Shown: positions 1 to 13,838 of the stretch, piece after piece
Numbering within the stretch: position 1 is the stretch's first letter
Layout of the letters: every line of letters begins with the position of its first letter
Source: Willaertia magna
Lineage: Eukaryota > Heterolobosea > Eutetramitea > Acrasida > Naegleriidae
NCBI GenBank assembly: GCA_902984215.1
Contig: CADWAF010004468.1
Span: 1-13,838, forward strand
Direction of reading: 5' to 3'
Length of the DNA stretch: 13,838 nt
Program-made: the position numbers and the translations under genes
Notes under the pieces: generated by a model
What the model was told of the DNA's origin: nothing
Database searches by the model: none
The model's input: only the letters and a program-made list of their open reading frames with translations

Positions 1-106
1 TATATTGAACACTTGAATTTGTACCTGAAGTCCCTCTATCATTCGAAGAAGAAGTTGGACTTTTGTGTTTTTTCGCTATTGAGTTGCTTTCATCAATGAA
101 ATTCAT
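1..106 (-). CDS. 5' fragment of a tagged gene, product unknown (runs off left edge)
   Basis: Thirty-five codons are visible. The start is the ATG at 104-106, chosen because it is preceded in the coding sense by a run of A, as in most genes here. The visible peptide begins MNFIDESN, has a basic stretch AKKHK at residues 11-15, and carries the motif TSSSNDRGT at residues 18-26. That is the local version of the tag found near the N-terminus of the next five genes on this strand. The rest is Ser/Thr/Asn-rich and probably disordered. No domain is visible, so the function cannot be given. It is the last member of the minus-strand row, lying about 220 bp downstream of the Ulp1-like gene. Coding status is inferred from the shared motif and start context, because the fragment is too short to judge alone. 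Confidence 0.6.
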   Translation of the reverse strand, partial: MNFIDESNSIAKKHKSPTSSSNDRGTSGTNSSVQY

Positions 107-328
107 TTTTTTTTTATTTTTATTTTTAAAATTTTCTAGGGTGCAATGAATTCAAAACAAACAACAAACCATAATACTTAAAAAATAAAATTAATTAATT
201 TATAATACACCACCTTTAACGACAATTAAATAGTTTTACAAATAATAGTTTCGTGTTTTTATCTGAGATATAATATAGAAAAGATTATTGAGTTTATTTT
301 AAAAAAATTTTGGTTTTATTATTACAAC

Positions 329-346
329 ATTTAAAGTGCTTTAAAT
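329..346. repeat. Perfect 8+2+8 palindrome over the stop codon of the Ulp1-like gene
   Basis: The 18 bases ATTTAAAG-TG-CTTTAAAT form a perfect inverted repeat with a 2-nt centre and include the TAA stop (331-333, minus). The 9-mer TTAAAGTGC inside it is also the core of the three direct repeats at 6182-6248. A role in transcript ending is possible, but in DNA this AT-rich chance is a fair alternative. Confidence 0.4.
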
Positions 347-3300
347 CTAATTGCTTCATCTGCATAACTAATAACATCTCTTTGAGAACAATGGGCCAAT
401 CCTTTCTTCAAGTATCTAGGAACACTGTAATGGAACTTGCAACAGTGATCAGAAAAAACTTTTTCTTGGTTGTCCTTAATTGAAGAATTTAATGCACCTT
501 CCTCATCTTCGTAACCTACCTCTGACATTAATTCATAAATATCAAACAATTTAGGCAATTCAATACCGCACTCCTTTTCGAATAATGAAAACAACTGAAC
601 TTCCATTCTTGTATCTTTTGCAAAACACACGCCAGAATTAATCAATTCTTTAATTTTATAACCAATTGCTTTTCTATTTAATATTACGTTACACTTATGG
701 TTAAGCAATTTTTTTCTTTCATATTCATGAACTAATGGAATACGTGTAAGACATCTATATATCCATTCATATGATTTTATAAACTTGTGGTCCAAAACAT
801 ATACATTGAAACCATCATTGATAATTAATTTGTCGTCAGTTTTAATGCCATCATAATGATAGATCCTTTCTTTTGCATCCTCAGGTTCAAGTGTATAATA
901 ATCGTATTCTATAAAATAATGATAAATTGTTGTTCTTTTTGGTGGAGCGAAAGTGTTTGTATCAAAGTTAAAAGGTAAGTGGAGTATTGTAAATTCTGAA
1001 GGAAATACAATACTGTCAACGTTTAAAAATGCTTCAAAATCAATGTAATATATTCCTCTTGATAATATATGTGTGATGTTTATATTATTGTTAGCCATAT
1101 ATTTAGTTAAAGAAGAATAATCATAATTATTATTTGGAAATAATTGTTTGTTAACTGGTTTTGTAAAAATTAATTGCAAATAATCATTAATATTCCCAAT
1201 AATACTATTAACCACTTCAATTTCTTTATAACTTTCCACACCTCCATAAATATGTGATACAATTATATTATTCAAAGAAATAATAGTATCTTCACATGAT
1301 TTTTCCATAGTTGTAAAAAGGTTCAACAATTCTTCCTTATAAAGATCCATATCTAATGGCCCACAAGTGTTATGCTTTTTTCCAAAAGAGTTAGGTTGCA
1401 TTAATATAGCAACTAAATCCTTCTTAGAACAATAATTTGTAAAAGCAATATCTTCATAAATAGAAAATATTTTCAATAATTTCTCATCTGTGGATTTAAA
1501 TTGCCGTTTTGCACATAAATTTTCTTTCAAGTAATCAATAAAATTATTAATTTTAGCATAATATTGCTCTTCAACAAGTTTAAATGATGTGTCTATAGCA
1601 AAATCCAAAGAGTTAGAATCTATTTCTATATCATTAAATTCATAATTATATGAACCTCTATGTTCATTTTCAACTTTAAACATTTGGCAATATTCTTTTC
1701 TATAAGCAAAAACAGATGGAACGTAACGTAATTTTTTTTTTTCAAATCTCTTTAAATCTTCATAAGTGACACAATTATCTAAATAAGCAAGGGCAAAAAC
1801 ACCACAATCACATTCATACCTTAACCTTTTACTTATTGGTTTTTCTACTTGTAAAGAATCTGAATCTAAAGAAATGCTACACCTACTGTACATAGAAATA
1901 ATAAAATTTTTAAATTCATTAATCAAACTGTCATCATATTTTTTAGAGAAATTGTCAATGTAAACAATTTTGTTCAATTTTCTAAAGTAAAAAATAATTT
2001 GTTTAAAATTATTATTCTTATTTCCATTAACAGGCAATACTATAGTATCAACATTTTCAAAATTAATATTTGTATAAAAATCATCGAAATTTTTATCCTT
2101 TGCAAGTAAAATATCAGTTATACATGAATTTAAATATAGATTTCTATGATGGCAAGAATTCAACTGTTCAATAAAAGAATTTACGCATTTATCTGATACG
2201 TATTGGAAAGGCAATAAACTAACAAAGTCTTTAATATTCAAAAGCAAATAACCTAACGAATTATTGACACGCAATATATATGCTAATTCATTACAATTTT
2301 CTTTTAATGGTGGTTGATCTATTTTATATTTAATATTTCTCTCACTCGTACGTGATGACCTACCTTTATTCGATCCAAGCCTTATATTTGAACCTCTAAA
2401 TGCAGCTTGCAGCACAAGGACCAAATTCTTATTTTTTGTCACTATGTTTTGAATTTTAGCACGTAAACAAAAGTAAAATATCATTTCTTTTTGTGTCAAT
2501 TTTTCATTAAGGTCTACTTGACTTACTATAATTTCATTATCGTCCATTTCAACATCACTATCTGAATCAAATTGCTGCAAAGAAACATCTTTAGAGGTAG
2601 AACCAACACTCAATCTGAAATTTTCAAACTTCATTCTTAATTCCTCGTCAAGTATGTCAACTAATTTATCTTTTTCAATGTTACACAATTCGTTCTTTAT
2701 TTTAGAATATTCCTCAGACTCAATAATGTTATTCACATTTAAATACTCCAATATTTCAAGATAATATTGGTTAACTCTTAAATCATCAATCATTTTCATG
2801 TCTAAATTTTTATTTTCAAACACATTATTTAACTTTCTGCTTCTATGATGTTTTTGTTTGTTCAAATGCAATTCTTTTTTAGTTTCAAACTTTTTAATAA
2901 TATCATCCTCAATATGAATAGAATTTAAATAGTTATAAATACCAAGAAGAACTTTTAAACGAACAATTTTCAATGTTTGACTTTTTTCCAATAAGGACCA
3001 TTGTTTTTTACCATTATAATCCATTCTTCTTAAAGCAAAATAAACGTAAATTTTACCCTCTGGAGTATTGGTTTGTGGATAAGTTGAATAATGGAAACTA
3101 ACAGTTGACACTTTTTTTTTTGTGTTATATAATTGTTCTAATTTCATCATTAAATCCCCAGGTAAAGTCTTCTTTTTAAATAAATACTCATAATATTTAC
3201 CAACAAATACTTTTTCTGCTTCAATTTCTTCAGTGTCCATATTTAGTGCAAGCTTTGGAAAAAATTCCTTTGTGTATTTACTTATAACATTTTTATTAGT

Positions 3301-3684
3301 ATATAGAAAATCAGGATCATTAAATGATTTAAGTTTTAAATATGAGTCTACATTGTGAATAATTTCGTTAGTTAATGCATTCATTTGTTTTTTTTCATTT
3401 CTATCAGCCAATTGCGGAATTGAATTAAGCAAATAATAATGTTCAAATTCACCAACTTTATAAATTTCTTCATCATCAGCAAATGGTTTTCTAAGTCTTT
3501 TTTGTTTGTTTTTTCTGTACAATTTTTGGTATTCAGTTTTTCTGTTTGGAGTAGCGTTGTTCATAGGGTTTTGTTCATAATTTCTTTTCTTATCTGTTTG
3601 GTTAAGAGAAAGTGCTTCATTGTTCCGACGATCATCAAAACGAGATGTTGGAACGTTTGGGTTGTGATTATCCTTTTGGTACAT
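331..3684 (-). CDS. Large Ulp1/SENP-like (C48 fold) protein with incomplete catalytic site
   Basis: An uninterrupted 1117-aa protein. Residues 13-20 (TSRFDDRR) match the tag shared by the neighbouring minus-strand genes, followed by a basic region (DKKR, then KNKQKRLRK). Residues of about 490-660 look like a Ulp1 cysteine-protease domain. LPFQYVSDKCVNSFIEQL resembles the entry helix, VLPVNG is at 549-554, VYID ends in D577 (the place of the catalytic Asp), and CDCGVFALAYLD has C627 as the presumed nucleophile. In active family members a His-Trp pair lies about 17 residues before the Asp. Here that stretch reads NNNFKQIIFYF with no histidine, and the oxyanion Gln about six residues before the Cys is also not seen. 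The fold call is fairly safe but activity is doubtful: it may be a pseudoprotease that binds SUMO or another ubiquitin-like protein. The flanking 480-aa N-terminal and 450-aa C-terminal parts are unrecognised. Domesticated transposon origin is possible because C48 domains occur in some DNA transposons, but no transposase was seen. Confidence 0.72.
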   Translation of the reverse strand: MYQKDNHNPNVPTSRFDDRRNNEALSLNQTDKKRNYEQNPMNNATPNRKTEYQKLYRKNKQKRLRKPFADDEEIYKVGEFEHYYLLNSIPQLADRNEKKQMNALTNEIIHNVDSYLKLKSFNDPDFLYTNKNVISKYTKEFFPKLALNMDTEEIEAEKVFVGKYYEYLFKKKTLPGDLMMKLEQLYNTKKKVSTVSFHYSTYPQTNTPEGKIYVYFALRRMDYNGKKQWSLLEKSQTLKIVRLKVLLGIYNYLNSIHIEDDIIKKFETKKELHLNKQKHHRSRKLNNVFENKNLDMKMIDDLRVNQYYLEILEYLNVNNIIESEEYSKIKNELCNIEKDKLVDILDEELRMKFENFRLSVGSTSKDVSLQQFDSDSDVEMDDNEIIVSQVDLNEKLTQKEMIFYFCLRAKIQNIVTKNKNLVLVLQAAFRGSNIRLGSNKGRSSRTSERNIKYKIDQPPLKENCNELAYILRVNNSLGYLLLNIKDFVSLLPFQYVSDKCVNSFIEQLNSCHHRNLYLNSCITDILLAKDKNFDDFYTNINFENVDTIVLPVNGNKNNNFKQIIFYFRKLNKIVYIDNFSKKYDDSLINEFKNFIISMYSRCSISLDSDSLQVEKPISKRLRYECDCGVFALAYLDNCVTYEDLKRFEKKKLRYVPSVFAYRKEYCQMFKVENEHRGSYNYEFNDIEIDSNSLDFAIDTSFKLVEEQYYAKINNFIDYLKENLCAKRQFKSTDEKLLKIFSIYEDIAFTNYCSKKDLVAILMQPNSFGKKHNTCGPLDMDLYKEELLNLFTTMEKSCEDTIISLNNIIVSHIYGGVESYKEIEVVNSIIGNINDYLQLIFTKPVNKQLFPNNNYDYSSLTKYMANNNINITHILSRGIYYIDFEAFLNVDSIVFPSEFTILHLPFNFDTNTFAPPKRTTIYHYFIEYDYYTLEPEDAKERIYHYDGIKTDDKLIINDGFNVYVLDHKFIKSYEWIYRCLTRIPLVHEYERKKLLNHKCNVILNRKAIGYKIKELINSGVCFAKDTRMEVQLFSLFEKECGIELPKLFDIYELMSEVGYEDEEGALNSSIKDNQEKVFSDHCCKFHYSVPRYLKKGLAHCSQRDVISYADEAIRFKAL

Positions 3685-3757
3685 GGTTTGTTGTTATTTT
3701 TTATTTTTTTTATTTTTGTTTTTTAATATCAACCAGCTACAATCGAAATGAATGAAC

Positions 3758-3795
3758 AATTTTGTAAAGAACCCCATTTAATATTTTACAAAATT
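3758..3795. repeat. Hairpin-forming inverted repeat upstream of the Ulp1-like gene
   Basis: AATTTTGTAAA (3758-3768) and its exact reverse complement TTTACAAAATT (3785-3795) are separated by 16 nt. It lies in the 265-bp gap between two minus-strand genes, about 75 bp upstream of the Ulp1-like start. It could be a regulatory hairpin or operator, or a decayed element end. No function can be assigned. Confidence 0.45.
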
Positions 3796-3866
3796 CCTAA
3801 ACCATAACACGAAAAACAAAATCTCTTTTTTGATTGAACCAATAGGCTATATTTCTTATTATTCAA

Positions 3867-3944
3867 GACAAACAAGCAAGCAAGTATACAATTACAGTGT
3901 ACAGATAGGGCCCAATACAAAACACATAGGCTTGCTTGTTTGTC
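3867..3944. repeat. Perfect 15-bp inverted repeat with 48-nt loop
   Basis: GACAAACAAGCAAGC (3867-3881) is matched exactly by GCTTGCTTGTTTGTC (3930-3944). The loop holds further small palindromes, including GGGCCC and the GTATAC/GTGTAC pair. A perfect 15-bp pairing that is not pure A/T is unlikely by chance in a gap this small. It lies just past the stop codon (3950-3952) of the lysine-rich tagged gene. Likely explanations are a 3'-end hairpin for that transcript or a very short foldback element (MITE-like remnant). No target-site duplication was recognised. Confidence 0.6.
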
Positions 3945-3949
3945 GGTTT

Positions 3950-4369
3950 TTATTTGTACAATAAATTATTTAGTTTTTCTTTTTTAATTATAACAGTCTC
4001 CAATTGCAATGTTGTTTGTTCATTATTCAATAATACACTTTTGTTCACCTTTATTTTAGACGCTTTTGACTCATCTTCTTTTATTTCTTTTCTTTTTTTA
4101 ATTCTTACTTTTGTTTTAACGATTTTGTCGCTCTTTGGCATGTCTTTTGTTGTGTGTGTCTCTTGTTTTGTGAAATATTTCTTTTTAATAGTAACCGTAC
4201 TTTTTTTTTCTTTGCTTCCTCTATCATCTATCTGAAACGAAGAAGTTACTGCTATTTGTTGCTTCTGTTTGTTATCTTTCTTTTGTTTTTTCGGATCACA
4301 ACTTCCTCTATCATCTACTTGAGACGAAGAAGTTTCTGTTACTTTTCTCTTGTGTTCAATAACTGGCAT
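3950..4369 (-). CDS. Lysine-rich protein with two copies of the N-terminal tag
   Basis: A 139-aa protein. The start at 4367-4369 (MPVIEHKRK) is preferred over an in-frame ATG ten codons upstream, because it follows the A-run leader that is duplicated with the module at 6872-7053. The tag occurs twice: SSSQVDDRGS at 14-23 and SSFQIDDRGS at 43-52, 29 residues apart, with KKQKKDNKQK between them. Basic clusters on both sides (KRK at 7-9, KKQKK at 27-31) could form a long-linker bipartite nuclear signal. The remainder is extremely Lys-rich (for example RIKKRKEIKEDESK), probably disordered or helical, with no known domain. It may be a small nucleic-acid-binding protein, or the surviving 5' part of a longer gene whose body was lost. 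Its first 52 codons are nearly identical to the start of the pseudogene at 6267-7027, after which the two diverge sharply. Confidence 0.6.
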   Translation of the reverse strand: MPVIEHKRKVTETSSSQVDDRGSCDPKKQKKDNKQKQQIAVTSSFQIDDRGSKEKKSTVTIKKKYFTKQETHTTKDMPKSDKIVKTKVRIKKRKEIKEDESKASKIKVNKSVLLNNEQTTLQLETVIIKKEKLNNLLYK

Positions 4370-4395
4370 TTTTTTTAATTTTTTTTTAAATAAAA
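4214..4395 (-). repeat. 5' tag cassette, copy 1 (97% identical to 6872-7053)
   Basis: This 182-nt segment covers the A-rich leader, the ATG and the first 52 codons of the lysine-rich gene. Reading it against 6872-7053, I count five substitutions in the coding part and about one difference in the leader T/A run. Similarity stops abruptly at both ends, so the repeat unit is the leader plus the tag-encoding 5' end and not the whole gene. Confidence 0.85.
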
Positions 4396-4485
4396 TCAAA
4401 GCTACAAATTATTAAATTAATTTTATTTTTTAGTTTTACATTTCACAATAAATTATTCTTCAATACCATTACAATTCACAATAAA

Positions 4486-6156
4486 TTAATCTTCAATATC
4501 ATCAAACCCTTCCATGTATAATCTATAGTCACATTCTTCTAATTTCTTAATTAATTCGTCAATATCTCTGTCAATAAATCTATGATGGTACATTTTATCA
4601 TGAGGATAGCTAATAGTTAATTTTCTTAACCCTGCTAATTTCCTTAAATCCACTAAGAATTTACCTTTGAAAGGAACTTCAATACTTAAGTGCTCTAAGT
4701 AACTTATATATCTCAAACTTCTTTCAAAGTAGGCGACACCGAACTTTATTTTGAGGCTTCTTAATTTTAAATCAATCCAACTATTGTCATCTCTATAAAT
4801 ATCATAGCAATCAACAATAACCAACTTTGTGACATTTTTGAAATAATTCAAATTAACAATTGATTTTTCATCATTAATATCGCCATTAATATATATTGTT
4901 TTCAAATTAACGCAGTCATTAAAATCATAATTTGTATCATGTGTTCTCAAACAACGCAATGAAGCAAAGTCTTTATATGGGAATTTATTTAGACTTACGT
5001 GTAATTCAACCAAGTTTTTACAATTTCTAATATTCTCATATTTAATATTTGTATGCATGGCTTTTAAAGTTTTTAAATTTACTAATCTATTTAAATCTAT
5101 TGTTCTTTCAACTTCATCATTATAACTTTGATATTTATATTTATTATTAATGTTCAAGTAAGTGAGATTGTTAAGGTTTTGTGGTGTAAATTTGATTTTT
5201 GGCAATCCAATGTAAACATTACTGATATCTAATTCTAATAAACTTTCTGGTAATTCAAGAGACTTCTCTAAATTAACAAAACAATTGGTTATGTTTAATT
5301 TTGTTAAGTTATAATTATTAAACAATTTCCCATTAACTACAAATTCTTTAACATATAATACTTTCAATTCGCTGCCAATAATATCTTTTAAATCTAAATA
5401 TATAGTATCCTCACCGTTTTCTACTTCCAAGTAAGTTAAACGTTTTAATTCTTTGAGCTCTTCAATAAAGTGGTCTATGTTCGGACTATCTAAAGTTATT
5501 TTTAAGTATTTCAAATGTTTAAAAAGATTAAGGGGAAGTTCATTGTATGTATTTGTACCTAAACGGTTAAGGTATGTTAAATTTTCGAATTCAGCACAAA
5601 GAGAGGGATCCATAAAGGTATATGGAGCATCAAGGTAAGTTAATTGTTTCCTTACTCTAATAAAAGGTCCGATAGGGTTATTAAATTCTCTCAAATATTT
5701 TGGCAATTTTATCTGAAGCAAATTGGGGTATTCTTGCAATTTTTGTAAAGTATTTTTGCAATACTTTAAATTTAAAACTTTGACGTTTTCTTTTAACTCA
5801 TTTGGCATTATTGGCACTTCTCTGAATATGATGTTGGATAGCAAGCAGTTAACAAGTGCACCTTTAAACAAATGTTCATAAAATTTCTTACACACAAGCC
5901 CTAAATTTAAGTAGTCTAAAGGGAACCTAATAAATGATATTATTTCCTGTAATGCATCAACACTTAAGTTGTAGACAACTGGTTTTTCTGTGTACACTAC
6001 TCTAACAGGTAATAGATTTAAATTTATAGTATTGCTTAATTGTTCTTCGCTCATTAAATGAAGAAATTCTTGCTTTAATTTCTTCGGATCGCTTCCTCTA
6101 TCATCAACACGAGACGAAGAAGCTTTAGTTTGATTTCTTTTGTTGTGTTTGTCCAT
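4486..6156 (-). CDS. F-box / leucine-rich-repeat protein with N-terminal tag
   Basis: A 556-aa protein. The chosen start (ATG at 6154-6156, MDKHNKRNQ) follows a run of A. An in-frame ATG at 6280-6282 would add 42 codons, but these are made of the direct repeats at 6182-6248 and look like leader DNA. The tag SSSRVDDRGS is at residues 13-22, followed by DPKKLK. An F-box lies at about 62-103 (VDALQEIISFIRFPLDYLNLG, then VCKKFYEHLF). From about 120 to the end there are irregular leucine-rich repeats of the L-x-x-L-x-L type (KHLKYLKITL, KRLTYLEVE, LVNLKTLKAM, LRSLKIKF). By family knowledge such proteins bind Skp1 through the F-box and a substrate through the LRRs, as adaptors of SCF ubiquitin ligases. 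The substrate is unknown. A decayed paralogue lies immediately upstream (6267-7027), so the family duplicates locally. Confidence 0.85.
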   Translation of the reverse strand: MDKHNKRNQTKASSSRVDDRGSDPKKLKQEFLHLMSEEQLSNTINLNLLPVRVVYTEKPVVYNLSVDALQEIISFIRFPLDYLNLGLVCKKFYEHLFKGALVNCLLSNIIFREVPIMPNELKENVKVLNLKYCKNTLQKLQEYPNLLQIKLPKYLREFNNPIGPFIRVRKQLTYLDAPYTFMDPSLCAEFENLTYLNRLGTNTYNELPLNLFKHLKYLKITLDSPNIDHFIEELKELKRLTYLEVENGEDTIYLDLKDIIGSELKVLYVKEFVVNGKLFNNYNLTKLNITNCFVNLEKSLELPESLLELDISNVYIGLPKIKFTPQNLNNLTYLNINNKYKYQSYNDEVERTIDLNRLVNLKTLKAMHTNIKYENIRNCKNLVELHVSLNKFPYKDFASLRCLRTHDTNYDFNDCVNLKTIYINGDINDEKSIVNLNYFKNVTKLVIVDCYDIYRDDNSWIDLKLRSLKIKFGVAYFERSLRYISYLEHLSIEVPFKGKFLVDLRKLAGLRKLTISYPHDKMYHHRFIDRDIDELIKKLEECDYRLYMEGFDDIED

Positions 6157-6181
6157 TTTTTTTTTTTGTGGGTAAAGTAAA

Positions 6182-6248
6182 AATCTTAAAGTGCACATTT
6201 TCAAAACAATCTTAAAGTGCAGAATAATATAAACAATCTTAAAGTGCA
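6182..6248 (-). repeat. Three exact 14-bp direct repeats before the F-box gene
   Basis: AATCTTAAAGTGCA (plus-strand reading) occurs exactly at 6182-6195, 6208-6221 and 6235-6248, with periods of 26 and 27 bp. It lies 26-92 bp upstream of the preferred F-box gene start. The regular phase suggests either a cluster of transcription-factor sites in the promoter/leader or a short tandem array. If translation began at the distal ATG, the repeats would encode LHFKIV-like segments, which looks accidental. Confidence 0.65.
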
Positions 6249-6266
6249 AAAATTTACATTTCTTAT

Positions 6267-7027
6267 TCAAAGACTTTCCCATTTGTTGTTATTAATAAAA
6301 TTTTTTTGTATTTTGCTGATTAACAGTTGTAAAGATAAATCTAAATATCTTTCTTTTGTATTGTTTTTAACTAAGGTAAGTTTTCTCAATTTCTTCATGT
6401 CACAAAGATACCTACCAGTAAATAAAGTTGTTTTTGTTACACTTAGATGTTCTAAATTCTTTAATAATACCAACTCTTGTTCGTTAACTTTTTGACATAT
6501 CAATTTTAAACTGCGTAATCTTGTTAGGCCAGAAAATCCATAAGAACTTTTTTTGGGGAAAAAACAAAAACATAGAACTAATTTTGTAATATTGTGATAT
6601 TCAAATATATAGTTTGGTTTTAAATTTGCTTCACAAAAAACTAGAGTTTTCAAATTATTCAGTTTTTCTAAATTAATATATTGATCTTTTTTAACAATCT
6701 ATTAATTACACTAGTTTTAAACACTATTTCAAAAAGTGCTGAACAAGAAATACTAAACATTAACACATCTTTTCCATATTTTATAAAAGAAATAATCTCC
6801 CCAATTTCATCCATGTTCAATTGAAGTAATTAGTTCTTGTTTTTTAAACATTTCAATTCAAACATACATTCGCTTCCTCTATCATCTATCTGAAACGAAG
6901 AAGTTACTACTATTTGTTGCTTCTGTTTGTTATCTTTCTTTTGTTTTTTCGGATCACAACTTCTTCTATTATCTACTTGAGACGAAGAAGTTTCTGTAAC
7001 TTTTCTCTTGTGTTCAATTACTGGCAT
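6267..7027 (-). pseudogene. Decayed tagged F-box/LRR gene
   Basis: Three pieces lie in gene order on the minus strand. First (7027 to about 6833) is the N-terminal module MPVIEHKRK with two tag copies, the first changed to VDNRRS. It ends at TAA 6830-6832. Second, in the same frame beyond that stop (6814 to about 6671), is an F-box-like segment MDEIGEIISFIKYGKDVL, closely parallel to ALQEIISFIRFPLDYLNL of the intact neighbour. That frame ends at TAG 6668-6670. Third, one base back in frame (about 6690 to 6267), is an open LRR segment (LEKLNNLKTLVF, LTRLRSLKLI, LKNLEHLSVT). The frame change coincides with A-AAA-AAG near 6690, so it is either a homopolymer indel or, less likely, a slippery site. 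One nonsense codon, one frame change and a shortened LRR body make loss of function the simplest reading. The 6267-6653 part could still be translated as a 128-aa fragment. Confidence 0.8.
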
Positions 7028-7053
7028 TTTTTTTAATTTTTTTTTTAATAAAA
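6872..7053 (-). repeat. 5' tag cassette, copy 2 (partner of 4214-4395)
   Basis: This segment includes the A-rich leader, ATG at 7025-7027 and two tag-encoding blocks. The few differences from copy 1 include changes inside the first tag (D to N and G to R), consistent with relaxed constraint in a pseudogene. Downstream of the cassette this gene continues towards an F-box, whereas copy 1 continues into a lysine-rich tail. Confidence 0.85.
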
Positions 7054-7332
7054 GTTCGTTTTGTTTATTTACAATTTGTGTTATGCTATTGTTACAGGTT
7101 CCATGTATAAATTTAAAGAGCTATTATTTGTTATTATTTGGGCCTCAACTTCAAAACCAAACGCAAATAAAACTTTAAATGTTGTACAATTTAATGTTAA
7201 TCTAATATAATTTAAATGAGTAACTGTTTTTTTCACTATTTCCTCTCCACCCACAAAAGAACACACATTCTATTTATCTAGATAAACACATTGAATCTCA
7301 TTTATATTTAAAAGCATTTTACCTCTTTCTAC
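7028..7332. other. Gap between pseudogene and 180-aa gene; one doubtful small ORF
   Basis: This is 305 bp of AT-rich DNA. Its first part is the A-rich leader of the pseudogene (to about 7053). A 61-codon minus-strand ORF at 7081-7266 has a faint LRR-like phrase (THLNYIRLTLN) but no tag, no A-run before its ATG and no recognisable domain. It may be a remnant of an LRR gene or chance. Nothing else was seen. Confidence 0.4.
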
Positions 7333-7875
7333 TCATTGAAAAGTAATGTAATAATTTCCTTTAAATTTATATGCATGCCTTATTCCCTCATTTCTAGTAT
7401 TGAAATAGTCAAAATGTCTTAGATGTATTGTACATAAATCAATGCATTCTGTAATCCTTTTACTGTTCAAACTCATCCTTTTACATATTTCTTGCTTCAT
7501 TTTTCTCATCATTATATTATAGCTAAACACTGCCGCCCCTATTTCTTTATTGTTATCTTTCAATTGAAGCTCTAAATTATAAAATCCATTTAATATATAT
7601 TCATTAAACACTTCAACATGTTCTCTTTCTAATGTATCCCATTCAGATGTTATTTTAAGATAGTCAATAAGTATTTGTTCTTTCATTCTATTGCTTTGTG
7701 GTTTATTTAAACCTTTTTTACTTCTCTTTCCTTTTCTTTTATTATTATTTCTTTCTCTATCATCTTGTTGAGACGAGAAAGAAGTATTGTTTTGTTCATC
7801 TTGAGAAGATGTTTCTTCTTGGAATTTGTGGGTTGCCGGATTGTAGATAAAAAACTTCTTTACCTGTGGTGCCAT
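7333..7875 (-). CDS. 180-aa tagged protein of unknown function
   Basis: Starts at ATG 7873-7875 (MAPQVKKFFIYNPATHKF). Residues 34-42 (SSQQDDRER) are a diverged version of the cluster's tag, preceded by a second Ser/Gln-rich patch (TSSQDEQNNTS) and followed by a strong basic run (NNNKRKGKRSKKG, 43-55) that could be a nuclear signal. Residues of about 65-180 look like a compact, mostly helical domain (RMKEQILIDYLKITSEW, then MMRKMKQEICKRMSLNS, ending YKFKGNYYITFQ). I do not recognise the family. It is the first gene of the minus-strand row and diverges from the Crinkler-type gene across 131 bp, so the two may share a promoter region. The clear sequence complexity and intact frame support a real gene. 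Confidence 0.65.
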   Translation of the reverse strand: MAPQVKKFFIYNPATHKFQEETSSQDEQNNTSFSSQQDDRERNNNKRKGKRSKKGLNKPQSNRMKEQILIDYLKITSEWDTLEREHVEVFNEYILNGFYNLELQLKDNNKEIGAAVFSYNIMMRKMKQEICKRMSLNSKRITECIDLCTIHLRHFDYFNTRNEGIRHAYKFKGNYYITFQ

Positions 7876-8006
7876 GTTGTTGCAACTTTTTCCACTTCAT
7901 TTTTTCCCTCTCTTTCAAATATAGTATTACTTTATATGGTTTCCATTAAGAGGCTGGTGCCTTGGTTCCAGAGCGTTTTGCCGGGTAGTGTTAATTTTGA
8001 AAAAAA
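7876..8006. promoter_or_regulatory. Divergent promoter region with a GC-richer patch
   Basis: 131 bp separates the start codons of the 180-aa tagged gene (minus) and the Crinkler-type gene (plus), so it must hold both promoters or leaders. Positions of about 7950-7990 are clearly richer in G and C than the surroundings, and contain GGTGCC, TTGGTTCCAGAGC and GCCGGG. The plus-strand ATG at 8007 is preceded by eight A. No TATA or initiator element is claimed. Confidence 0.4.
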
Positions 8007-10261
8007 ATGGTTTTGTTAAGAGATAGAAAAAAACGAAAAACATTGTCCTTGACGTTTTCTGACTTTGAAGCAGATTTGGAGGAAAAAATAAGAACCAAAA
8101 ACAATATCGAAATATTGCAGGTACTTACGGAAGAAGCAGGTTTTGATGAAGAAGACTTGAAAAAAACTGGACAATTAAAAGGAAGACATTTAATTAATGC
8201 TTTTAAAACTTACAAAGTAAACATTGAAAGCAATAAAACTCCGGAAACTGCAATTGAAGCACTTATAACTTCATTAATGAGGAAAATATAACAGATAAAA
8301 GTATCGCTAAATCTATTGCATTTTGGTTGATTGCCAAATTTACTGCGCCAAAACCAAAAAAGCAATTAGAACCCTCCAATTACATATATGAAGAAAGTGA
8401 TGAAATAGATAGAAAATACCTAAAAGTTATAGGCTTAGGTCGTGAAGAACTACTATTTTTAAGATATTTGAACAAATGTAATTTAAAAGATTTAACAGCT
8501 CCTTCTTCAATGGCCATGGATCGATTGAGCTTTAAATTAAAACACCGAGAAAACACAACTAAACAAATAATAGAAGTTGCAGAAACACATTACAAAAATT
8601 TTTATGTAGAAAATCAAAACAAACAACATATAAATTTCTTTATTGCTAGTGGAGGCATTGGTTGTGGTAAAACACGTATTCTGGCCGAAATTCCTAATGT
8701 ACTTCGTACTATCAAATTGGATAATATTTTTGCAAAAACTAACATTATTTATTTTAACTTTGCTAATGGACTTTCTTTAGCTGATACTGACAGAGATCAT
8801 AAGCCAATTTCTATGATTTTATCTAGAATTATTTTTGCTGCCTTTGAACATCCAGAATTATTTATTAATACACCAGCAAGTGACAATAATTTATTTCTGT
8901 ACGAAGTAATGAGAATTATATCAGAAAAGCTTCATGAAAAATATGGTGACGCTATTATTCCATTAGTATTAGCATTTGATGAATATCAATTAGCCACAAG
9001 AGCTAATCCTAATTTAAATAATTCAATTCAACATATATTAGGGTGGTATATGAGAAATATTCAAAGTAAACACGGTATTATACTATTCCCAGCATTTGCA
9101 GGAACTTTGAGCGAATCTGATGTAAAGATGGAACCAACACAATATACTCCTGTTCATTTAGCACTTCCTTCGTTAAGACCCATTGATATTACAGAGATTA
9201 TGGCAGATATGGGTTTATCAACACTTTATGAAGGAGAATACAAGGATTTTTGGAATATGATTGGTATTGTACCTAGACATTTGGAATGGGCTTTGGGCAA
9301 TGATACTGAGAAGTTAAAAACATTAGTATTGAATGATGAAGTTGTGAAATCTACTATATATATCAATATTGTTAATACTGTAATGAAGCAGTATCATCAT
9401 AACTTGTATGACGATTATTATGGAAAATTGGCTTTGGATACACTATCTGGACTAAAACAAAAGTTAAACGAAGATGAAAAACTTACTAAGTATATCAAAG
9501 AAGGTAGAGTTTATTTAGATGATAATGGCTTAATTGGAATTCCTCTTGTGGTGATTGATGTATTATCAACTAAGATGAATTATATTCCAAAAGGTGTCGT
9601 AAGTGATTTTATAACTGTGTCCAATAAGCCGTTAAGGGAAAGGTTTGAAGAATTATTCCTTAAAACAATGACCGCAAGATTTAACGTTTTATACACCACC
9701 AGGTGTGTTGATAAAGTGTTATTTTCGGAGCTGTTTAAAGGGGCACACTATAAATCTGGCTTGGGATGTATTTCTTTACTGACAGCAAACTCCTCGTGGT
9801 TTGAATATGATATCTTAGATGCCAAAATATCAAAGAACAAAGATGAAAATAATGATTTAATTGATCATGTTACCATAAAGAAAGCAAAAAAGAACCAAAA
9901 CGACATTGATGGTGTTCTTTGTCCACTAACTAATGCAAAAACTAACAAAAGAATGGTGTTTGTAACACTAAATAAGTTTCAATACGAGGATTCACATAAA
10001 GGGATGATAGAGCCAACTGATCTTGTATCCTATTACGAAAAAGCCATTAGAACATCATTCAAAGATTCAGATACTTTTGTTATTATTTTTACAAACAAGA
10101 CAGTTCCAAAAAATACTAAAGAAATGATAATTAATGGCCTAATAACAAAATCAAAAAAGGGACAAAGTAAAATAACAGTCGACACGAGTAATTTAATTCT
10201 AGTTTCAGGTGATTGTTTTCCTAACTTCTTTCATCCTTTCATTTCCAACAATTTACAATAG
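8007..10261 (+). CDS. Crinkler/RHS-type P-loop NTPase protein, frame interrupted once
   Basis: Two open segments form one apparent gene. An N-terminal part (ATG 8007, A-run before it, to TAA 8289-8291) is helical and charged with an unrecognised N-terminus (RDRKKRK, then EEDLKKTGQLKGR). The main part is open from 8258 in another frame to TAG 10259-10261. It has Walker A GGIGCGKT (8651-8674), followed by RILAEIPNVLR, and Walker B VLAFDE (ending about 8983). The KTRxLxExP and FDE(Y/F) pattern is typical of the Crinkler/RHS-type NTPases known from oomycetes, early fungi and other eukaryotes. The C-terminal 180 residues resemble the restriction-nuclease-like domain often fused to it. DIDGVL (about 9902-9919) could supply an acidic residue, but the expected E/Q-x-K reads LNK, so catalysis is uncertain. 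In known systems these are secreted or nuclear effectors or selfish-element proteins; which applies here is unknown. The break could be a frameshift or an intron. Confidence 0.72.
8217..8301 (+). other. Reading-frame break in the Crinkler-type gene
   Basis: The upstream frame reads sensibly (TPETAIEALITS) and stops at 8289-8291. The downstream frame opens only after a TGA at 8255-8257 and reads sensibly at once (FINEENITDKSIAK). The two coding-like frames overlap by about 30 nt, which favours a one- or two-base indel near 8258-8275. A GTAAAC donor at 8217 with an ATGAG acceptor ending at 8281 would be a 65-nt intron restoring the frame, but it is not T-rich and its sequence looks coding. A sequencing error remains possible. 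Confidence 0.55.
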
Positions 10262-10441
10262 ACCAACAAGTCCCTTTTCATGTCACTACCACTAAGCTTT
10301 TGCTAATTCGCTCAATCCTCATTGTAAATGTATCATAATAAATTCCTCACTCTCTTAATGTTTCGATTAGAAGGTCTAATTCAAAAAGGCTCCGATTTTG
10401 CAAAACTGTTGATAATTCTTACAAAATCCAATTCCAAAAAA

Positions 10442-12020
10442 ATGAATAGAAATGATAACAAAAGGATTAATTTTTTAGCTTTGAAGATTCAAAGAAAATC
10501 AAATTTCTTCACAACTATTGTCTTTATTGCGACTTTACTCTATCTTTTCTCTACAGTACTTTCCGTTGTTTCCGCTAGATCTTTCTCACAAAGTAATATT
10601 ATTGAAAGTAAATCGGTAGCAGCATCGGTACTTCAACAACAATCTCTAAATATTAATGTTTCTTCTTTTTTCACTCTTAAATGTACAAACAACCCAGCAC
10701 TAGGAAGTGAAAGTCAATCACCGGACAATGGTGGTAATGGATTTCTATTCGCAATGAATGGTTGCCACTTTGATCCAACCAGTACTTATATCTCTGGAAA
10801 TACTAAACAAGTACTTTATAGGCTATCTAATTATATTTTACAATGGTTTAATACTTTAAAATTTGTTAATCCTTTATTATTTGCATTATGTTTTCTTTTA
10901 CCTTTTTTACATAGTGTTTATGATGATAGTCATTATACAGAAGCATTAGGAAGTAATTTTGCTTTTTATATTTTACAAACATTAGCTTTATTTTATAGAT
11001 TGGCAATTATTCAAGCATTGTCTTTGGTTTTAATTTTAACAATTAGGTATGTATAATATTATTGTTAAATTAGTTGTTATATTATATTATTTATGTACAG
11101 ACAACCTTGTCCTTGTTTGTGTGAGTATGTTGGAAGTGGTAGTTTACATAATAGTGGTGATATTCAATCAGATTATGTTAGTTCTCTTATTAATGGTACT
11201 GTATCAAATGCTTTTGTTTTAGGTAATAGTTTAGGTTGGTGTATGGTAAGTATAATTTATTTTAATTTATAATTTAATACCAATAAAGCCAAGTGAAGAA
11301 GTAATTATGGGTACAGTGTTAATCATGCATATTTTAGAAAGATATTCTATATTTGTTGGCATTCCAGCACTTATTATTCTTCCAACAGCAACTATCTTTA
11401 GTGGAGAATCAAGTTTAGGGCAAATTATAACAGCAGTATCCATTGGTATTATTTATCATTTCTATTCAACTAGAACACCATTAATAGCACGTTCCATTGA
11501 TTTTATTGTAACATTTGTAGCTGGAATAATTGCTTTATTCGTTACAAAACATTTCTATCCAGAAGTTGATTTTGCATATACAGGATACTTTTTTGAAGGA
11601 TTAATTTTCCAAATCTTTTGTATTTTAATGTTATTACTTTGTTTCTCAATGGATTTCTTAAAATTAATAATGTTAAAATGGTCTTTATATTCATTATCAC
11701 CACAAGATATACAATATATGAATATGAAGTTATTGCCTGATAATCAAAACTTTTCAACATTTGATCAACAATTAGAAGACATTGGAACTAATGATAGAAT
11801 TGGTGGAAGAAGAAGAAGAATTAATAATAATGAAGATGAAAGTACTTCTTTGGTTAGAGAAAGTTCTTCTTCTTTACGTGGAACTGGAAATGTATTTTCA
11901 AAAGTTTATCACAAGAAATACTTAATGATGTTTGTTGGAATCATTACATTTATTGCTTTGTGTGGTATTCAAGTTTTAAATGAATTTTCAAATGAAATTT
12001 TAAGTTTTGGTAGAGATTAA
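10442..12020 (+). CDS. Multi-pass membrane protein, PAP2-like with altered catalytic motifs (3 exons)
   Basis: Proposed exons are 10442-11046, 11101-11245 and 11289-12020, giving 493 aa. The frame is kept across both introns. The start at 10442 (MNRNDNKR) follows an A-run; an in-frame ATG at 10328 would add 38 residues. Membrane segments: one near the N-terminus (TTIVFIATLLYLFSTVLSVV), two before the first intron, about five more in exon 3, the last near the C-terminus. A polar Arg-rich loop (GGRRRRINNNEDE) precedes it. Three spots line up with PAP2 phosphatase motifs. R-Q-P at 202-204 fits the K-x6-R-P site, M-P-S-E-E at 250-254 sits where G-M-P-S-G-H is expected, and Y-S-T-R-T-P-L-I-A-R at 309-318 sits where S-R-x5-H is expected. 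The histidines are thus replaced by E and R, so it is probably not an active phosphatase. The membrane call is firm; the PAP2 call is moderate. A Cys cluster (PCPCLC) marks the loop after motif 1. Confidence 0.65.
11047..11100 (+). other. Intron 1 of the PAP2-like gene (54 nt)
   Basis: GTATGT donor and TTATGTACAG acceptor. Without it the frame hits TAA two codons after the donor. Removing it joins a split Arg codon (AG|A) and leads into QPCPCLCEYVG. It is AT-rich and T-rich, unlike the exons. Confidence 0.85.
11246..11288 (+). other. Intron 2 of the PAP2-like gene (43 nt)
   Basis: GTAAGT donor after the codon for the Met of GWCM, and acceptor CAATAAAG. Splicing is in phase 0 and produces MPSEEV running into the long exon 3 frame. 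An alternative AG a few bases on would create an immediate stop, supporting 11288 as the boundary. At 43 nt it is very short for a spliceosomal intron. Confidence 0.75.
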
Positions 12021-12286
12021 AAAAGTTGATACGTAATATATATTTAACAACTTTACAAAATCCATTTTCAAGGCAAATAAAGAAAATAAATTTTTACGCC
12101 CTAATTTACTGATAAAAATGTTTGATTGACAAGGAAATACCATTGAGATAATTCCCACGAATCTAGGATTACTCCAACGATCTTGTAAGTGTTGTTTTGG
12201 GATTTTCTTGAATAAATGTTCTGTTAAGGCGAATCAAAGCAAGAACAAAATTACATTCACATTTAAAAATTAGTTTATTTGATAAA
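12021..12286. other. 3'-3' gap between convergent genes
   Basis: 266 bp between the stop codons of the PAP2-like gene (plus) and the small membrane protein (minus). A short stem (AAAGTTG at 12022-12028 with CAACTTT at 12048-12054) follows the plus-strand stop. Positions of about 12140-12190 have higher complexity and GC than normal for the gaps here (for example TTCCCACGAATCTAGGATTA), but no ORF, tRNA B-box or convincing snoRNA boxes were found. Confidence 0.35.
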
Positions 12287-12691
12287 TTATCGTAGTTTAT
12301 CAAATGGTGTTGGATTAAAATATTTATCATTAAATATATCCTGAATTACTTTATTTACTTTAATATCATCAAATGTTAAATTATTTTTATTTAAATAATA
12401 TTCTCGTTCATAACTTTTAAACATTTCTCTTCTTTCAGAATTAGAAAGATTTAATAATAAATTATTAATTTCATTTTCTCTGTCTTTATTCATTTGTTTT
12501 CTTTCCCAATAAGGATGTTCATAAATATATCTGTAAATAAATTTACCTGGATAATAATTTATAATAAAAAATATAGATAAAAAGATAAATATTTTTGATT
12601 TTGGTGATTTAGTGTTTGTGAAATGTCTATCGTAAAAGAAATTAAATCCCGATCTATCTTTCAATTTGCCCGTAAATATCTTTCCTATCAT
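12287..12691 (-). CDS. Small single-span membrane protein, unknown
   Basis: A 134-aa protein starting at ATG 12689-12691. The N-terminus is basic with few acidic residues (MIGKIFTGKLKDRSG). One hydrophobic segment follows at about 33-47 (SKIFIFLSIFFIINY), then an aromatic-basic stretch (FIYRYIYEHPYWERK) and a charged helical tail with many Asn, Glu and Lys to the C-terminal DKLR. Size, basic N-terminus and a single span resemble small subunits or assembly factors of mitochondrial inner-membrane complexes, but no family is recognised, so this is only a suggestion. It diverges from the RNA ligase across about 150 bp and converges with the PAP2-like gene. It lacks the tag of the left cluster. 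The intact frame and non-repetitive composition favour a real gene. Confidence 0.65.
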   Translation of the reverse strand: MIGKIFTGKLKDRSGFNFFYDRHFTNTKSPKSKIFIFLSIFFIINYYPGKFIYRYIYEHPYWERKQMNKDRENEINNLLLNLSNSERREMFKSYEREYYLNKNNLTFDDIKVNKVIQDIFNDKYFNPTPFDKLR

Positions 12692-12843
12692 TTTATTTTA
12701 TTTTTTTTTAAATTATTTTTGTAAAACCTATTGTTACAAAGGTATCGTTGGCTTGTTGGTTTTTACATTCACTTTTCAAAATTGCAGTTAGAAAACTCTT
12801 GTAAAATAAATTCAGTTTTATTTGTAAAATAAAAATAAAAAAA
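12692..12843. promoter_or_regulatory. Divergent promoter region of small membrane protein and RNA ligase
   Basis: The 152 bp separate two start codons. The 12-mer TTGTAAAATAAA occurs twice on the plus strand (12799-12810 and 12822-12833), and a related TTTGTAAAAC lies near 12719. The ligase ATG follows an A-run. The repeats are candidate regulatory words but are weak given the base composition. Confidence 0.4.
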
Positions 12844-13838
12844 ATGGAATTTGTTGAATATCAATCAATTGATAATTTTTATAAAAGTTACAAGACATTT
12901 CTTATAGATCCAAATTATGATAAAATTAAAGAAATACCATGGGTAGTAACAGAAAAAGTTCATGGATCGAATTTTAGTTTTATTGTTTCTAAAAATAACG
13001 GTGATACAGAAGAATTAAAAGTTTGTAAAAGAGGATCTATATTAACTCTAGGTGATTTAAGTTATTATCCAAAAGCAGTCGAAATTGTAAAACCAAAATA
13101 TGAAGAAAAATGTTTAAAATTATTTAAAATTATTGAAAATTACTTTGAAGATAAATATATTATTAAATCAATCCAAATTTATGGTGAATTATTTGGTGGT
13201 CATTACCCTCATCCAGAAGTTGAAAACGTTTTAGGAAGAGTGCCTATCCAAAGACATGTTTATTATTCAATTGATTATGATTTTTACGTTTTTGACATAC
13301 GTGTTACTGGAATGACAGCTAGTGAATTTAAACAAGAAGTAAAGTTCTTTATTGGATATGATGAAATGATTAAATTTTTAATGGAAAGTGGATTTGAAAT
13401 TTTTGCAAAAGAATTATTTAGAGGAACATTAGAAGAATGTTTAAATAATTTTAATTCTGTATTTAATTCAATTATTCCAAAAGAATTTTATAATTTACCT
13501 GAAATGGAGGAAAATAAGAATATTTGTGAAGGAATAGTGATTAAACCAATTAAAGATACATATACAAAATATAAAAGAGAAAGAATGATAATTAAGAAGA
13601 AGAATGACCAATTTAATGAAAAGATTAAAAATCCAAATAGAATTTTTGATAAAAAGATTAAAGAAGAAGAAGAGGAAGATGAAAAGATTGTTTTTATTGG
13701 AAAAGAGACATCGGAAAATATTTATAAAAAATTATTAGGTTATTTAAATGAAAATCGTTTAGAAGGGAATGTTTCAAAGATTGGAGACATTTACAGTTTT
13801 GTTCAGTTAAGAGAACAATGTATTGGGTTGTTCGCTAA
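12844..13838 (+). CDS. Rnl2-family RNA ligase (nucleotidyltransferase), 3' end beyond window
   Basis: Open from ATG 12844 (A-run before it) to the right edge: 331 complete codons and no in-frame stop. The terminal TAA letters at 13836-13838 are out of frame. Nucleotidyltransferase motifs appear in order: motif I T-E-K-V-H-G-S-N with the adenylated lysine K38, KRG at about 58-60, motif III IYGELFGG at 112-119, motif IIIa F-D-I at 150-152, motif IV EGIVIKP at 229-235, motif V IIKKKN at about 249-254. A Glu-rich linker (EEEEEDE) leads to a C-terminal part with YLNENRL and VSKIG, which resembles the helical C-domain of T4 Rnl2-type ligases. Family members use ATP to adenylate the enzyme and then the RNA 5'-phosphate, and seal 3'-OH/5'-phosphate nicks in duplex RNA (repair or editing). 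The EKVHG form of motif I is shared with T4 Rnl2 and the trypanosomatid editing ligases. Whether this one is mitochondrial is not evident from the N-terminus. Confidence 0.9.
   Translation, partial: MEFVEYQSIDNFYKSYKTFLIDPNYDKIKEIPWVVTEKVHGSNFSFIVSKNNGDTEELKVCKRGSILTLGDLSYYPKAVEIVKPKYEEKCLKLFKIIENYFEDKYIIKSIQIYGELFGGHYPHPEVENVLGRVPIQRHVYYSIDYDFYVFDIRVTGMTASEFKQEVKFFIGYDEMIKFLMESGFEIFAKELFRGTLEECLNNFNSVFNSIIPKEFYNLPEMEENKNICEGIVIKPIKDTYTKYKRERMIIKKKNDQFNEKIKNPNRIFDKKIKEEEEEDEKIVFIGKETSENIYKKLLGYLNENRLEGNVSKIGDIYSFVQLREQCIGLFA

Follow-up and report, generated by a model that had tools for sequence, protein, structure and literature searches.

A tag on the genes of one element

It might be asked why a row of neighbouring genes with apparently unrelated products should share one short segment near their N-termini. 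The question is raised by contig CADWAF010004468.1 of Willaertia magna, whose entire length of 13,838 nucleotides is referred to as the window (C735); other contigs of the same genome are abbreviated likewise (C48, C231, C487, C319 etc.), and genome searches covered the 19.24-Mb assembly. An earlier inspection of the letters alone (the sequence-only reading) had noted this segment, hereafter the tag, on six consecutive genes of the minus strand and had proposed a shared address or regulatory tag, comparable to the leaders of the Crinkler and RXLR families. We found that the tagged genes together constitute one multi-gene repeat. On the best explanation, the left 7990 bases of the window are the greater part of one copy of a DNA-transposon-like element that has several genes and ends of CACTA type. 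Since 34 of 35 matches to tag DNA fell within copies of this repeat, the tag is not an address signal used throughout the host, nor a leader of the Crinkler/RXLR type. It belongs to the element and appears to evolve concertedly. The features of the element in the window are as follows, with the tag forms quoted in the sequence-only reading in brackets.

7974-7990, minus strand: left terminus of the element, 5'-CACTACCCGGCAAAACG, where the copies on C487, C269, C231 and C368 start to match
7333-7875, minus strand: gene A, 180 aa here and shortened (261 aa in C231); homology runs past the stop to about 7086
7750-7785, minus strand: tag in gene A, TSFSSQQDDRER (SSQQDDRER), by repeat search and shuffle test
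6283-7027, minus strand: decayed LRR gene; its leader MPVIEHKRKVTE... is identical with residues 1-52 of W. magna ABK040_012845
6959-6991, minus strand: tag 1 of the decayed LRR gene, TSSSQVDNRRS (SSSQVDNRRS), DNA repeat family
6872-6904, minus strand: tag 2 of the decayed LRR gene, TSSFQIDDRGS (SSFQIDDRGS), DNA repeat family
4486-6282, minus strand: gene B, weak F-box/LRR, likely start ATG at 6156
6091-6123, minus strand: tag in gene B, ASSSRVDDRGS (SSSRVDDRGS), DNA repeat family
3950-4369, minus strand: gene C, lysine-rich, body kept in three lineages (..ASKIKVNK..QTTLQLETVIIKKEK)
4301-4333, minus strand: tag 1 in gene C, TSSSQVDDRGS (SSSQVDDRGS), DNA repeat family
4214-4246, minus strand: tag 2 in gene C, TSSFQIDDRGS (SSFQIDDRGS), DNA repeat family
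331-3684, minus strand: gene D, 1117 aa; W. magna ABK040_012844 is 93% identical over its length
3616-3651, minus strand: tag in gene D, PTSRFDDRRNNE (TSRFDDRR), by sequence comparison and shuffle test
1801-2241, minus strand: predicted Ulp1/SENP-like fold of gene D, about residues 482-628, from structure prediction, with Asn at the expected catalytic His
1-106, minus strand: start of gene G (putative transposase), the remainder lying past the contig end; fuller copies in C487 and C319
26-58, minus strand: tag in gene G, PTSSSNDRGTS (TSSSNDRGT), by shuffle test

Extent and copies of the element

The left end of the element (5'-CACTACCCGG at window position 7990) lies just past the outermost tagged gene, and the untagged genes (8007-13838) fall outside. 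In the copies on C487, C269, C231 and C368 the likeness to the window begins at this same point, and there they have CACTACCCRGCAAAACG, in some cases decayed. The individual left ends are CACTACCCGG (C735), CACTACCCAG (C487), CACTATTCAG (C269), TACTATCTAG (C231) and TACTATTCAG (C368), that is CACTA in three of the five copies and TACTA in two. Both right ends, CACTACCCGGG (C319:9817-9827) and CACTATCTGGG (C797:6587), have CACTA. Left and right ends come from different copies, and none of those examined shows both. The left-end pattern also matches in C6 and C537, where no element gene was recognised within 0.7 kb around the match; these two were taken as chance.

Gene A gave 19 matches on 14 contigs and gene D 20 matches on 13 contigs, the window included in each case, and the two genes occur together on nine contigs, among them that of the window. 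Many copies are interrupted by stops. In aligned stretches the identity to the window is 97% for C48 and 86-93% for C415. Tags were found again in copies on nine other contigs, in genes A, B, C, D and G and also in gene F, which is not present in the window; other copies are without tags. When C48 and C415 were compared with window positions 1-7990, the changes relative to the window were mostly C>T or G>A (130 of 188 and 415 of 646, respectively), and in C48 CpG sites had changed more often (21/148 versus 109/1668), a decay with a deamination-like bias.

Is the tag more than a chance resemblance?

All eight tags quoted in the sequence-only reading were confirmed in the sequence, in frame and on the minus strand. 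A DNA repeat search placed six of them, those of D and G excepted, in one family with 62-100% identity over 52 nt. To assess chance, a score was built from the tags of B and C only, and the best match within the first 100 residues was compared with 1000 shuffles of each N-terminus. The observed score was reached by 3 shuffles for A of the window and by none for A of C231, by 1 and 3 for D of the window and of C231, by 1 for C of C231 and by none for either F. For G the figures were 4 (window, 35 aa), 43 (C48) and 0 (C487). No background open reading frame (n=24) exceeded a score of 24. As the tags range from 20 to 35, the weakest of them fall within the background and would not stand alone; nor are the background frames a random sample, since most come from contigs chosen for a match to a degenerate tag pattern. 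The case for the tag depends on its recurrence, and a chance origin is unlikely.

The claim of one segment in front of unrelated bodies was borne out, often with basic clusters adjacent, and goes beyond recent duplication of a single gene: in diverged copies the tag recurs on A, C, D, F and G, families without evident mutual homology. Details of the claim had to be revised. Tags are indeed present in all six genes, but the leaders of the decayed LRR gene and of gene C are a 185-nt duplication with 96% identity, so that the six are not six independent cases. The supposed gene at 1-106 does have a tag but is merely the start of the large gene G. The 180-aa gene is likewise tagged but truncated: its homologue in C231 has 261 aa, and over 7086-7333 the window still matches the C-terminal part of A at the DNA level, which identifies the gene as a shortened A. 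The tag was said to lie within the first 55 residues, yet that of B occupies residues 55-64 in the 598-aa reading and 13-22 if counted from the inner ATG at 6156. The possibility that all hits are recent paralogues of a single gene, named in the sequence-only reading as a refutation, holds by half: the tag keeps to one element family, yet it occurs on at least five gene families of that element.

A host-wide tag was considered and rejected. The degenerate peptide pattern SS-x(3)-D-[DN]-R-G occurs near chance level in the genome, with 14 matches against 10 for a reversed-pattern control. Five of the 14 lie in the element and the remaining nine on nine other contigs, whose open reading frames of at least 150 aa have tag scores of 24 or less. 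The host-like F-box/LRR gene of C276 is untagged.

Tag wording and element lineages

In its commonest form the tag reads [ST]S-x(2-4)-hydrophobic-[DE](D)-R-[GS] and is embedded in low-complexity sequence, in most cases close to the N-terminus. Four lineages of the element were distinguished, and each of the genes A, B, C, D, F and G is tagged in at least one of them, B having been seen only in lineage 1 and F only in lineage 2. Lineage 1 (C735, C48, C415) has tags in A, B, C (twice), D and G. In lineage 2 (C231, C487, C269) A has TSSSRVDDRE, C one or two copies of SSSHDNDDTGS, D FSSRDNDDTGS, F ASASGVHDRGS and G TSTSCLNDRGG. Lineage 3 (C319) shows five tags of the type TSHYDDGIKS in C, SSFNFDRGS in G, and in D TSHYDDGDKF plus an N-terminal TSISNYFDRGG. 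Lineage 4 (C121, C96, C361) has TSQYNVERSN and SSLAIVERSN in A, and SSSASFERSN with related repeats in the N-terminal part of D. The number of tags in gene C is two to five in lineages 1 to 3, but one in C231. Repeats of another kind lie within the lineage-4 element beside gene D (C361:7600-8885), and one frame of them reads as glutamine-rich units (QQQKQP..) interrupted by stops.

The wordings SSSQVDDRGS, SSSHDNDDTGS, TSHYDDGIKS and SSSASFERSN, each belonging to one lineage, were searched for at the DNA level. Matches inside element copies amounted to 10 of 10, 7 of 7, 9 of 9 and 8 of 9, and the reversed control patterns of the four gave zero matches. The nine of nine include one right-end fragment in C797, which was counted as an element copy because its sequence matches the right-end region of C319 and terminates with CACTATCTGGG. 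The sole match outside the element is on C696, antisense in an actin-like open reading frame.

The wording tends to be common to different genes of one lineage. The mean tag-DNA score was 10.9 for different genes of the same lineage (24 pairs), 5.9 for the same gene in different lineages (15 pairs) and 5.45 where neither was shared (66 pairs); 14 of 20000 label permutations matched the same-lineage excess. The 15 tags compared, one per gene and lineage, were picked by eye, and the copies that stand for some lineages are decayed; this sequence comparison is therefore an indication of concerted wording and no proof. The second tag of C, both tags of the decayed LRR gene, four of the five lineage-3 C tags, the extra lineage-4 repeats, the N-terminal tag of lineage-3 D and the right-end repeats were omitted from the count.

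A docking peptide?

An explanation for these observations may lie in the proteins. We tentatively favour the idea that the tag is a docking peptide that gathers the proteins of the element, a plausible reading that falls short of being probable. Apparently the tag spread from one gene to another and was exchanged in concert within each element lineage; as a peptide it would dock to one common partner. The proteins of the element might thereby be brought into one nuclear assembly, in which C with its several tags could serve as a multivalent hub. Several observations argue for an action at the peptide level. In lineages 1 and 2 all 17 tag-DNA matches are in the frame of the leader of their own gene, despite shifts in position: by lineage, the tag of A lies before or after an F-x-YNP motif and that of G at residue 18 or 79. 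One serine column mixes the codons TCG (4), TCT (2) and AGT (3), while one Asp is found in 12 of 12 rows, and C has multiple tags. The five C tags of lineage 3 are also in frame with the C body. In C121 (lineage 4) tags and bodies are in differing frames, which was taken as decay.

The same data bear on the idea that the tag is a DNA-level cis site, coding by accident of its position and bound by an element-encoded DNA-binding protein. This is modelled on TNPA, which binds the subterminal repeats of En/Spm; the copies beside gene starts and ends would serve to regulate or mobilise the element. In lineage 3 three tag repeats without an evident gene occupy C319:9461-9616, at a distance of about 210-365 bp from the right end. 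C797 has similar repeats from 6758 on, its own right end being about 170 bp away; in both copies a different frame is open with an ATG. The A tag is 205-240 bp from the left end, and codon identity between genes can be high, as in GACAACGATGATACAGGAAGC, common to C and D in C231. A cis site would also be in line with the divergence of subterminal motifs between CACTA families, as described in PMC2613891. Against it stand the 17 of 17 matches in gene frame, the absence of any tag between the left end and the ATG of A (115 bp), and the switch between TCN and AGT in one serine column, which alters the DNA and keeps the peptide. Moreover the right-end repeats of lineage 3 may be a stray copy of the C tag array. 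A cis site is possible but not, in our view, probable.

The docking peptide itself has to face a number of contrary observations. Across families the codon differences between tags are 112 synonymous and 328 nonsynonymous, which does not speak for strong peptide constraint. In decayed copies the tags have changed at least as much as the rest (13/234 versus 181/6636 in C48; 32/261 versus 719/6297 in C415), and this comparison of C48 and C415 shows no sign of recent DNA constraint on the tag. The right-end tag repeats of lineage 3 hold stops and have no ATG in the tag frame. Gene A has no visible tag in C319, C368, C283 and C416, and in C371 only a decayed SQQNDRE. Lineage 2 is mixed, C and D having DNDDTGS and A, F and G keeping DDRG-like forms, and the rule of one wording per lineage therefore fits best for C and D in lineages 2 and 3, for A and D in lineage 4 and for A, B and C in lineage 1. 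Finally, the tags were selected by eye and the partner would be a hypothetical one.

Some of this fits a neutral spread, in which a leader was duplicated locally, kept alike by gene conversion and merely tolerated in low-complexity N-termini. The 185-nt duplication between the leader of C and the decayed LRR gene speaks for it, the leaders of B and C are alike past the tag, the tag is no better conserved than its surroundings in decayed copies, and some A copies have lost it. Yet A, D, F and G, whose N-termini are dissimilar, have the tag too, in copies with a protein likeness of about 39-60%, the N-terminal tag of D is kept in lineages 1, 2 and 3, and the frame is preserved in lineages 1 and 2. 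Neutral spread, like a cis site, is possible but not, in our view, probable.

A serine/acidic site beside a basic cluster could also be read as a phospho-regulated nuclear import signal of the class "CK2 site plus nuclear localisation signal". Many tags do have S-x-x-D, with runs of K/R before or after. However, S-x-x-[DE] is missing from TSSFQIDD, ASASGVHD, TSTSCLND and SSSASFER, and a signal of this class leaves the lineage-specific wording unexplained; we regard it as very unlikely. A CK2 site as the common denominator of the tags was rejected, as it is not in every tag.

If the tag does act in docking, its replacement in step might amount to a code of self-recognition: only proteins of the same lineage would assemble, and foreign or dead copies would go unserved. 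We consider this extension unlikely. Autonomous DNA transposons are usually unable to stop their proteins from serving dead relatives, and a lineage-specific tag on the various proteins of an element would, if true, be a way to label "self". Even if the tag is merely a copied leader, it would illustrate that a short segment can become standardised across unrelated neighbouring genes, and would be a caution not to take tags of this sort for signals of host targeting.

Gene D and its predicted fold

Structure prediction gives D a Ulp1/SENP-like fold, and this raises the question whether the tag is a cleavage site for D. Ulp1 enzymes cut after Gly-Gly, which is missing from most tags. Asp148 and Cys198 (in CDC) are kept in three aligned sequences, but D does not have the complete His-Asp-Gln-Cys catalytic set of C48 peptidases: NNF or SNF stands where His-Trp is expected, with Asn at the His position in lineages 1, 2 and 3 and no His in lineage 4, and Gln is absent by the spacing of the triad, the structural register near the Cys being uncertain. 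Pfam gave D no sequence match to C48 peptidases at E<=1, and sequence searches of PDB were empty. D is probably not a working protease. As a tag-cutting protease it was rejected because the expected catalytic residues are missing, and cleavage is an extremely improbable role for the tag.

Homologues and neighbouring genes

Pfam matches of gene B were below cut-off (F-box-like, E 0.014; LRR_4, E 0.11). Homologue searches returned one protein for the F-box/LRR gene, W. magna ABK040_012845 (among 7998 scored candidates), one for D, W. magna ABK040_012844 (among 7992), and for G none at E<=0.01 among 7987 scored. By these two matches the host is a heterolobosean amoeba that belongs to W. magna or is a near relative. 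In ABK040_012845 an LRR part and the leader known from the decayed LRR gene are combined with the C-terminal half of gene B; the annotation is either a chimeric gene model or a genuine fusion in that strain. The AlphaFold model of gene A was unusable (predicted local distance difference test 33.6).

To the right of the element, 8007-10261 contains open reading frames of 94 and 583 aa. Close to the start of the latter is a P-loop-like GGIGCGKTR, and the frame resembles Crinkler-type NTPases; Pfam gave no match for it and a single weak one below cut-off for the 94-aa frame. An RNA ligase gene at 12844-13836 (PF09414, E 1.9e-20, T4 Rnl2 C-terminal domain) is cut by the contig end.

Comparison with known systems

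In Crinkler and RXLR effectors one N-terminal leader stands ahead of varied bodies. The single leader and the varied bodies are found here too, but limited to the genes of one transposon-like element and not across many dispersed effector genes.

The element has more in common with CACTA (En/Spm) transposons, including plant CACTA-ULP elements, namely CACTA-type termini and a multi-gene structure. Terminal inverted repeats starting with CACTA are present, across different copies. Several grapevine Cactavine families have a Ulp1-like protein beside a putative transposase, according to PMC2528002, and here too the Ulp1-like D accompanies the putative transposase G. The differences are that five or more separate genes are involved here and that the ends were seen in different copies. 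Transposase_21 was not detected in two G fragments at E<=10, for which reason we speak of CACTA-type ends and assign no class membership. The sole PF02992 match in the genome (C431:7669-8037, 24.7 bits, below cut-off, in an open frame of 501 aa) is not G; the two show partial likeness by eye (BLAST E 0.25 and 1.3), and the C431 stretch possibly represents another, separate CACTA-like element.

Neither the literature searches nor the accessible portions of PMC2528002, PMC2613891, PMC1636069 and PMC11702301 yielded an account of this element or of a tag common to the proteins of a transposon. The nearest parallel is that of TNPA and the subterminal repeats of CACTA elements, likewise a short, repeated, element-specific motif that diverges between families (PMC2613891). 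The motif described here differs in that most of its occurrences are in frame within the 5' ends of coding regions rather than concentrated at the termini of the element. A transposon-like element with CACTA-type ends is of a known kind; the behaviour of the tag is its unusual part.

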